64,000 nt of DNA, from the NCBI RefSeq assembly GCF_006715055.1, contig NZ_VFMN01000001.1, positions 1,054,001-1,118,000 of the forward strand, written 5' to 3'. Source of the DNA: Lapillicoccus jejuensis. GTDB lineage: Bacteria; Actinomycetota; Actinomycetes; Actinomycetales; Dermatophilaceae. The first letter of the stretch is position 1; each line of letters opens with the position of its first letter. Below are positions 52,762 to 55,552 of this stretch, in pieces. Position numbers and translations under genes: made by a program. The notes below the pieces were generated by a model, which was given only the letters and a program-made list of their open reading frames with translations, was not told the origin of the DNA and ran no database searches.

Positions 52762-52849
52762 GGAGGATTCGCATAGTGGCCTAGTGCGCACGCTTGGAAA
52801 GCGTGTTGAGTGAAAGCTCTCAGGGGTTCGAATCCCCTATCCTCCGCCA
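52762..52849 (+). tRNA. tRNA-Ser (GGA anticodon), CCA encoded
   Basis: 88 nt. The acceptor stem GGAGGAT pairs with ATCCTCC, the anticodon stem-loop is ACGCTTGGAAAGCGT with anticodon GGA, a long variable arm follows, and the T arm is GGGGTTCGAATCCCC. Discriminator G is followed by an encoded CCA. Confidence 0.95.
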
Positions 52850-52896: not shown

Positions 52897-53367
52897 ATGA
52901 CGCCGCGCCTCGCCGTCCTGCTCGTCTCGAGCGTCCTCCTCACCGCCTGCGGCGCGGGCGGTGGCGGGCCCGCACCGGAGGAGCCGGCCACCGGCTCCGA
53001 CGCGGCGTCGTCCAGCGGGTCGACCGGTCCGGCGGGCGCGTTCCCCGTCGTCATCGAGCGCCGCGGCGGCATCGCCGGCTTCGCCGACCGGGTCTCGGTC
53101 GCCGCCGACGGGACGGCGAGCGTGACCACCAAGCGCGGCGCCCAGCCCGGGTGCCGTCTCGAGGCGACGGCCGTCACGGCCCTCACCGCGGCCGTCACCG
53201 CCATCACGGCCTCCCCCGGGACGCCGCCCCCGAGCAGCGTCTCCGACGCGATGACCGTCACCGTCCGTCGCGGGGCGGAGCCGCCGGTCGTCGTGCCCGA
53301 CGAGGCCGGCGAGCCCGGTGCCGTCGTCACGCAGGTGCTGACCCGGGCGACCTCCGCCGGCTGCTGA
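52897..53367 (+). CDS. Small lipoprotein with emfourin-like (protealysin inhibitor) domain
   Basis: 156 residues from an ATG six bases after CATGAT. MTPRLAVLLVSSVLLTACGA is a lipoprotein signal with LTAC lipobox, then a Gly/Ser/Pro tether. The domain opens FPVVIERRGGIAGFADRVSV and ends SDAMTVTVRRGAEPPVVVPD, EPGAVVTQVLTRA. The IERRGGIAGF-type opening and the two-part beta layout resemble emfourin, a proteinaceous inhibitor of M4 peptidases. It is convergent with a secreted M4 peptidase. The family link is by pattern only. Confidence 0.6.
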   Translation: MTPRLAVLLVSSVLLTACGAGGGGPAPEEPATGSDAASSSGSTGPAGAFPVVIERRGGIAGFADRVSVAADGTASVTTKRGAQPGCRLEATAVTALTAAVTAITASPGTPPPSSVSDAMTVTVRRGAEPPVVVPDEAGEPGAVVTQVLTRATSAGC

Positions 53368-53394
53368 GCCGCCGTCCGGGGCCTCGCGCGGGGC

Positions 53395-53455
53395 GTCGTA
53401 CGGGCGCCGTACGACGACGCGGGGCCGGCCACCCGGGTGGGTGACCGGCCCCGCG
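53395..53455. terminator. Double terminator hairpin between lipoprotein and M4 peptidase genes
   Basis: First stem GTCGTACGG-GCG-CCGTACGAC (53395–53415), second an 11-bp stem CGCGGGGCCGG/CCGGCCCCGCG extended to 16 pairs (53418–53455). They lie between the two 3' ends and can stop transcription both ways. Confidence 0.8.
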
Positions 53456-53485
53456 CACGAGGTGGTGAGGTGGACCGTCAGGCGG

Positions 53486-55552
53486 TCAGCTCGCGACCGA
53501 GGTGTCGTCGACGACGAAGCTCGTCTGGAGCGAGGAGTCCTCGTTCATGAGGAACTTCACCGTGACGGACTTCCCGGCGAACGACGCCAGCGAGTACGAC
53601 CTCTGCGTGTAGGTCGAGTTGGCGCTCGCGTTGCTGAAGGTGGCCAGGGTGGTCGTCGTCGTGCCGGAGACGACCTGGACCTTCATCGTGTCGTAGGCCG
53701 TCGTGCCGGACTCGGCCGTGTCGGTGCGGATCCAGAAGGACAGCGTCGGGGTGCCCGTCGAGGGGACGGTGACCGTCTGCTGCTCGCTCTCGGTGGTCGT
53801 CGTGCCGTTGCCGCCGAGCCACAGCTTCCAGGTGCCGGTGTGCGCGGGGCGCCCGGTGTCGTTGGTGATCGGGCCGGTGGAGCCGGTCCAGCTCACGGCG
53901 CCGGACTCGAAGCCCGGGTTGGCGAGCAGGTTGGTGCCGGTGCCGCCGCCCCCGCCGCCGGTGGTGCCGCAGGTCTCGGTGCCCGCCGGGACGGCGATGG
54001 CCGAGAACGACGCCGCGATGTTGGCGCAGGTGGTGGTGTCGGTCGGGTACAGGTCCTTCGCCGCCTTGATGGCCGCGTTGCGGGCGGCGGCGTAGTTGCT
54101 CGTGCTGGTGAGGTACGTCGACAGCGCGCGGTACCAGATCTTCTCGGCCTTGTCGCGGCCCACCGGGGTCACGCTCGAGCCGTTGCAGGTCGGGCTGTTG
54201 TAGCTGACGCCGTTGATGGTCTTGGCGCCCGAGCCCTCCGAGGCGAGGTAGAACCAGTGGTTGAGCGGACCCGAGGAGTAGTGCGGGTCGAGACCGCCCA
54301 GGCTGCTGCTCCAGCAGTCCTTGCTCGCGCCGTCCTTGCTCGGCTGGTCCATGTAGCGCAGGGGCGTGCCGTTGCCGTTGATGTTGATCAGCTCGCCGAT
54401 GAGGTAGTCCGGCACGTCGTTGGGGTTGTTGGCGTACCACTCGACGGCGGTGCCGAAGATGTCGGAGGTGGCCTCGTTGAGCCCGCCCGCGTCACCGGTG
54501 TACTGCAGGCCCGCGGTGTTCTCGGTGACGCCGTGGCTCATCTCGTGCCCGGCGACGTCGAGCTCGACGAGCGGGTGGGTGTTGCCCGACCCGTCGCCGT
54601 AGGTCATCTGCTGACCGTCCCAGAAGGCGTTGACGTAGTTGTTGCCGTAGTGCACGCGGGAGGGGACGCCCTTGCCGGTGTTGAAGACGCCGGCGCGGCC
54701 GAGGACGGTGTTGTAGAAGTCGTAGGTCTTCTGCGCGCCGTAGAAGGCGTCGACGGCGGCCGAGGCGCGGTCGGTGTAGGAGCCGTTGCCCCAGACGTCG
54801 TCGGCGTCGGTGAAGAGGGTGCCGGTGCCGGAGGTCGCGCCCTTGAGGTCGGTCGCGGTGTTCCCGCGGCTGTCCTTCATCTGGTACGTCGACCCGGACA
54901 GCGTCGTGCCGAGGGTCACCGTCCCGACGAAGATGCCCTTGCCGGTGCCCTGCTCGATGTCGTCCCACGAGGTGAGCGTCCGGCCGCTGTGCGCGTCGAC
55001 GATCGTGTGCAGGCGGCTCGGGGTCTGGTCGGCGCGCACGCCCTCGGTGACGACGTCGTACGCGAGGACGGGCTTGGCGCCCTCGGCGTAGACGACGAGC
55101 TCGCCCTGGGGGGCCGCGGCGGAGCGCAGGCCCTGGGTCGCGGCCTTGCCGAGCGCGGCGGCCGCGCTGACCGTCGGCGTCGTCGAGGCGACGGCGACCT
55201 TGCCGGTGGCGTTCCAGCTGACGCCGCTGACGGCGCCGGCCCTGTCCTGGTGGGCCACGAGGTCGCCGCCGATGACGCGCAGGCCGTCGAAGGTGCGGTC
55301 GTAGCGCACGTGCTCGCTGCCGTCGGCGTCGCGGACGACGTCCTTGACGACCAGCCGCTCGCCCGAGCCCAGCTTGAGGGCCGACGCGGTGCGAGCGCTG
55401 TCGGTCCGGGCGGCGGCGAGCAGGGCGGCGCGGGCCGACGGCGAGGCGGCGGCGGGCGCGGCGCCCTGGGCGGCCGGTGCGATGACCACGGGGGCCAGCG
55501 CCGCGGCGGCGACGGCGCAGGTCGCGGTCAGTCCCGTGACGAGGTGTCTCAC
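53486..55552 (-). CDS. Secreted M4-family (thermolysin-like) metallopeptidase
   Basis: 688 residues from a GTG with AAGGAG upstream. A Sec signal peptide (LVTGLTATCAVAAAALAPVV) is followed by an FTP/PepSY propeptide (RYDRTFDGLRVIGGDLVAHQ). The catalytic domain has HEMSH at 336–340, the third zinc ligand in GGLNEATSDIFG and the transition-state histidine in LNHWFYLAS. The chain ends with a Gly-rich linker (TTGGGGGGTG) and a C-terminal beta-sandwich domain (LLANPGFESGAVSWTGS…FVVDDTSVAS), likely substrate- or wall-binding. An extracellular protease. The adjacent convergent lipoprotein resembles an M4 inhibitor. Confidence 0.95.
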   Translation of the reverse strand: MRHLVTGLTATCAVAAAALAPVVIAPAAQGAAPAAASPSARAALLAAARTDSARTASALKLGSGERLVVKDVVRDADGSEHVRYDRTFDGLRVIGGDLVAHQDRAGAVSGVSWNATGKVAVASTTPTVSAAAALGKAATQGLRSAAAPQGELVVYAEGAKPVLAYDVVTEGVRADQTPSRLHTIVDAHSGRTLTSWDDIEQGTGKGIFVGTVTLGTTLSGSTYQMKDSRGNTATDLKGATSGTGTLFTDADDVWGNGSYTDRASAAVDAFYGAQKTYDFYNTVLGRAGVFNTGKGVPSRVHYGNNYVNAFWDGQQMTYGDGSGNTHPLVELDVAGHEMSHGVTENTAGLQYTGDAGGLNEATSDIFGTAVEWYANNPNDVPDYLIGELININGNGTPLRYMDQPSKDGASKDCWSSSLGGLDPHYSSGPLNHWFYLASEGSGAKTINGVSYNSPTCNGSSVTPVGRDKAEKIWYRALSTYLTSTSNYAAARNAAIKAAKDLYPTDTTTCANIAASFSAIAVPAGTETCGTTGGGGGGTGTNLLANPGFESGAVSWTGSTGPITNDTGRPAHTGTWKLWLGGNGTTTTESEQQTVTVPSTGTPTLSFWIRTDTAESGTTAYDTMKVQVVSGTTTTTLATFSNASANSTYTQRSYSLASFAGKSVTVKFLMNEDSSLQTSFVVDDTSVAS

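Follow-up and report, generated by a model that had tools for sequence, protein, structure and literature searches.

Background

Emfourin (M4in) of Serratia proteamaculans inhibits M4 peptidases and binds them 1:1 at the active-site region, and the paper describing it covers only the protealysin operon of S. proteamaculans (PMC9505478). Emfourins are represented by the Pfam family PF20242 and the solved structure 6zyg, and the emfourin gene lies in one operon with the gene for protealysin, an intracellular enzyme. It is mostly unexplained how Gram-positive bacteria that release metallopeptidases of broad specificity keep their own surface from being digested. PepSY-domain proteins have been suggested to regulate secreted M4 peptidases, and lipoprotein foldases exist for other exported enzymes.

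The locus considered here lies in a window of 64,000 nucleotides from the actinobacterium Lapillicoccus jejuensis, where the gene for a small lipoprotein faces the gene for a secreted M4 peptidase. It shares with the emfourin system (PF20242, 6zyg) the pairing with an M4 peptidase gene, a domain that opens with R-x-G-G-[F/I/V]-A, an alignment of profiles that is colinear and a conserved Asp before a later strand. It differs in its partner, which is secreted and convergently encoded, and in the addition of a predicted lipid anchor, a beta-hairpin of about 15 residues and a pair of cysteines; its sequence is too divergent to match the Pfam family directly. The idea of an M4 regulator near the membrane is common to the PepSY proteins and this lipoprotein, but the domains are unrelated and a Pfam search found no PepSY domain at the locus. 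As judged from sequence comparison, the putative membrane-anchored emfourin relative together with the secreted M4 peptidase extends the emfourin/M4 pair by a new variant outside the cytoplasm.

Organisation of the locus

The lipoprotein gene, coding for 156 amino acids, occupies 52897..53367 of the + strand, with an ATG start at 52897 and a stop codon ending at 53367. The N-terminus of the protein, MTPRLAVLLVSSVLLTAC, is a signal peptide (residues 1-18; 52897..52950, +) carrying the lipobox LTAC, which fits the pattern [LVI][ASTVI][GAS]C and is retained across nearly all homologues. Met1 and Cys18 are invariant in alignment A1, and Cys18 would be the site of lipidation. A low-complexity linker of about 30 Gly, Pro, Ser and Ala residues (52951..53040, +), the length of which differs between homologues, leads into the emfourin-like domain (residues 49-156; 53041..53364, +), recognised from an AlphaFold2 model and from the match between the profiles of its family and of emfourins. 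Residues 49-62, directly after the linker, read FPVVIERRGGIAGF. The first-pass annotation had described the protein as wall-anchored; with a lipobox present and no sortase signal seen in the lipoprotein sequence, membrane-anchored is the better description.

The M4 (thermolysin-family) metallopeptidase of 688 amino acids is encoded on the opposite strand (53486..55552, -) from a GTG start at 55552 and has a signal peptide at its N-terminus. The FTP propeptide motif (PF07504, E 4.7e-13; 55217..55354, -) is followed by the catalytic and alpha-helical domains (PF01447, E 4.5e-47, and PF02868, E 2.3e-45; 53990..54952, -). These two domains, the zinc-binding HEMSH motif (HEXXH; 54533..54547, -) and the downstream Glu motif GGLNEATSD place the protein in the M4 family. 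The C-terminal domain (53489..53935, -) weakly resembles choice-of-anchor J (NF038128, E 1.8e-4), its 21.7 bits being under the cut-off of 30. The two genes are convergent, with 118 bp between their stop codons, and the tail-to-tail arrangement of a 156-residue lipoprotein and a secreted thermolysin-like peptidase noted in the initial annotation is confirmed by the reading frames, the lipobox, the M4 domains and the conservation of the lipoprotein in other genera. Two adjacent hairpins between the genes (53394..53454, no strand assigned; fold of -89.1 kcal/mol over 53362-53500, z -2.9) are probably a shared bidirectional terminator.

A tRNA-Ser(GGA) gene (52762-52849) ends 47 bp upstream of the lipoprotein start and tRNA-Ser(GGA) also adjoins the lipoprotein gene at both same-genus loci (L018 and L019); it is possibly the insertion site of the lipoprotein/M4 pair. 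A second M4 gene, of the protealysin-like type and with no obvious signal peptide, is present elsewhere in the genome (L153:3855-5195; C1 ~4258854-4260194). No PF20242 match over the cut-off was found anywhere in the genome.

Relationship of the lipoprotein domain to emfourin

The lipoprotein of the window, taken alone, gave no Pfam match (PF20242 included), none in PDB and none above the NCBIfam cut-off. In the absence of a useful database match, homologues were gathered for profile comparison. A single-sequence search found them in 13 of 58 genomes and a profile search in 43 of the 188 genomes of the host's taxonomic family. A first scan of genome contigs with the single window lipoprotein found no relatives, and a contig scan with a closer alignment named Terrabacter, Intrasporangium, Humibacillus and Lapillicoccus. 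Viral contigs and plasmids, searched with a lipoprotein homologue, yielded no relative.

Two lipoproteins of another family (L022/L157 and L121/L158) bridge the two groups. They exceed the PF20242 cut-off (27 bits, the curated Pfam threshold for the whole-protein score) with E-values of 1.4e-8 and 2.3e-9, respectively, and match a lipoprotein profile built without them with E-values of 9e-16 and 4e-13. A further lipoprotein, L159 of family f53, also exceeds the PF20242 cut-off, and 13 of 18 wider members match PF20242 at E <= 1. When a locally built emfourin profile was compared with 8544 ORFs, the top five matches all belonged to the lipoprotein family, the chance of which is about 3e-12. The alignment of the 43 lipoproteins with emfourins by hhalign gave a probability of 90.6% (P 1.3e-6) and is colinear across the domain; an earlier profile-profile comparison with 12 lipoproteins had given 58.8% over 25 columns. 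At the extra beta-hairpin of the lipoproteins, the emfourin side of the alignment is interrupted by a gap of some 15 residues.

The motif R-x-G-G-[I/V/F]-A, present in the window as R-R-G-G-I-A-G (53059..53079, +; alignments A2, A3 and A5), is a common signature of the two groups. R-x-G-G is invariant both in the lipoprotein family (A5) and in the emfourins of relatives (A3), the A and G that come after it in the lipoprotein alignment are nearly invariant, and 6zyg has REGGFA at the same position. The domain is best regarded as a predicted divergent, extracytoplasmic relative of emfourin, a link that is well supported at the level of the family because of the bridging lipoproteins, the ranking by the emfourin profile, the profile-profile alignment and the 13 of 18 PF20242 matches. 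The resemblance to emfourin first suggested from the pattern of residues thus stands for the family, through the bridges and the hhalign result, but not for the window protein alone, which does not match PF20242.

Predicted fold and the conserved cysteines

The AlphaFold2 model of the domain (mean pLDDT 86.9, pTM 0.78) consists of four strands, a helix, a strand and a helix. Structure searches with Foldseek and VIA put Mago nashi at the top of the solved structures (9% identity, Z 8.4 in VIA); the emfourin 6zyg is absent among the matches listed. The likeness to Mago nashi, a component of the exon junction complex, was set aside as possibly a common arrangement.

Cys86 (53152..53154, +) and Cys156 (53362..53364, +) form a conserved pair, and 31 of the 36 rows of alignment A5 contain both. 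For L118 the final cysteine falls just outside the aligned segment, within a longer ORF, and four rows truly lack one or both. These are L022 and L121, the lipoproteins of another family, which have neither, and L114 and L116 of genus g69, in which one cysteine has been lost along with the lipobox. A Cys86-Cys156 disulfide is a reasonable prediction for the exported members of the host's taxonomic family. The g69 form (L114, 7753-8133, -; L116, 7951-8340, +), which has no signal peptide or lipobox, lies directly downstream of a gene resembling a protein-L-isoaspartate methyltransferase.

Linkage with M4 peptidase genes

A relative of the window's M4 gene is convergent with and downstream of the lipoprotein gene at 34 of the 44 lipoprotein loci of the host's taxonomic family (the window locus included), in most cases within 300 bp. 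At one other locus the M4 gene is divergent, and nine lack a relative of the window's M4 gene in the flanks retrieved, among them L025, which lies on a contig of 4 kb. Random placement would give adjacency to M4 at about 0.4% per locus, for an assumed density of three M4 genes in 4.5 Mb, and the pairing of the two genes is beyond chance. Flanking genes are common only to groups of genera, so the pair persists among related soil bacteria in five mutually unrelated settings inside the family, plus two beyond it. Family f27 repeats the convergent layout, and family f53 has a divergent one.

Co-occurrence at the level of genomes was also examined. An M4 gene of some kind occurs in every one of the 43 genomes with the lipoprotein, as against 108 of the 145 others, and 36 of the 43 contain an M4 closely related to that of the window, as against 35 of the 145, kinship among the genomes being ignored in both comparisons. 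The co-occurrence and linkage with M4 genes in relatives are very strong. The idea of the first-pass annotation thus withstands both conditions that it had named as refuting it, a lack of similarity to emfourin and a lack of such co-occurrence, and is partly supported. At six loci (L020, L109, L110, L112, L115 and L117) the lipoprotein gene adjoins a tandem pair of M4 genes, the nearer of which lacks the C-terminal domain.

Unpaired genes and the wider lipoprotein branch

Neither a lipoprotein neighbour nor a degraded remnant of one was found at 28 examined loci with the same type of M4 gene. The paired and unpaired states switch at least nine times on the M4 tree, a pattern that fits repeated loss. 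In the opposite situation, the lipoproteins of four genomes (G017, G018, G070 and G088) have no M4 gene beside them, and these genomes contain no M4 closely related to that of the window.

More distant relatives (L212, L214-L220 and L222-L227) were identified in Chloroflexota and Methanomicrobiales as lipobox proteins with RTGGIAGFDD domains, several of which are over the PF20242 cut-off; they also match DUF6438 (PF20033) weakly. Members such as L212, L215 and L222 have in common with the window lipoprotein the lipobox, the RTGGIAGFDD domain and the same extra hairpin. They differ from it in their surroundings, as no relative of the window's M4 was found in the surrounding 5 kb or so, and an M4 match was missing from most of the assemblies, some of which are incomplete. 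Since these relatives occur in assemblies without an M4 match, other targets or roles must exist for the wider family, and this branch may face foreign proteases. Together with the partnerless M4 loci and the lipoproteins without M4, these cases indicate that the guard is optional.

Probable function of the gene pair

The most likely function of the lipoprotein appears to be M4 inhibition and self-protection. The pair can be read as a secreted M4 peptidase and a membrane-tethered extracytoplasmic emfourin relative, most likely its inhibitor, to which we assign a probability of about 60%. This reading draws support from the homology of the domain's family to emfourin, the linkage with M4, the emfourin domains that share a frame with M4 enzymes and the loss of one cysteine together with the lipobox in g69. 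Counting against it are the failure of the window protein alone to match PF20242 or PDB, the absence of 6zyg among the structure matches listed, the 28 M4 loci without a partner and the lipoproteins without an M4 gene. We infer for the lipoprotein a surface location, binding to M4 and a docking site. Once exported and lipidated at Cys18, the lipoprotein would sit tethered by its flexible linker on the outer side of the cytoplasmic membrane, where the disulfide-stapled domain would dock, probably via the R-x-G-G-[I/V]-A segment, on active M4 peptidase close to the membrane. M4 would be kept inactive at the cell surface, and enzyme diffusing off would stay free to digest external protein.

The persistence of lipoproteins in the four genomes that lack an M4 closely related to that of the window, and of relatives in archaeal and Chloroflexota assemblies without an M4 match, would also be expected of a general surface shield against the M4 (thermolysin-like) peptidases of competitors, for which adjacency to the organism's own M4 is a special case. 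Such a role is nevertheless unlikely, as it leaves unexplained the strong adjacency to the own M4 in several genomic contexts. The predicted location at the site of export and the pairing of the genes would suit a foldase, and the lipoprotein could be a membrane-held maturation factor, either a foldase or a chaperone handling the propeptide, that aids the folding or activation of M4 after export. However, the peptidase already carries its own FTP propeptide, M4 genes of the same type do without the lipoprotein at 28 loci and the family of the domain is homologous to an inhibitor and not to a foldase, all of which makes a maturation role improbable.

It is likewise hard to credit that the adjacency is merely an inherited neighbourhood without functional coupling, the lipoprotein having an unrelated role. 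Each gene does occur without the other, and M4 genes are common in the family (151 of 188 genomes); yet the orientation of the pair remains constant while the flanks change completely between genus groups, and the linkage recurs in another orientation in f53. Inhibition of the neighbouring M4 by the tethered lipoprotein is the reading retained here. A broader proposal, that lipid-anchored extracytoplasmic proteins of the emfourin type constitute a widespread anti-protease shield of the cell surface, directed at the own M4 in Actinomycetota and at foreign thermolysin-like proteases in archaea and Chloroflexota lacking M4, is put forward only tentatively and may well prove wrong.

If the inhibitor reading is true, a lipoprotein inhibitor encoded beside its enzyme and conserved over genera and contexts would offer a directly testable pair, and the range of the emfourin family would grow from cytosolic proteins to ones at the cell surface. 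Genomes worth comparing are indicated by the many cases without a partner.

Emfourin domains fused to M4 peptidases

In related genomes the emfourin domain PF20242 was observed to share an open frame with the catalytic domain of a protealysin-like M4 peptidase. An in-frame upstream HExxH is present in 17 of 22 checked PF20242 ORFs (L035, L036, L037, L041, L054, L055, L056 and others), and the arrangement is, on the evidence of these reading frames, a putative natural fusion of peptidase and inhibitor. The view taken in the first-pass annotation, that emfourins are only small cytosolic proteins of the protealysin operon, is too narrow, as PF20242 occurs both fused to M4 and in the lipoproteins of Chloroflexota and methanogens. 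The protealysin-like M4 proteins with a C-terminal PF20242 domain (L035, L041 and L055) resemble the window pair in that an emfourin-type domain is tied to an M4 peptidase, but differ in that the two are joined in one reading frame, whereas in the window they are encoded by separate genes, both with export signals.
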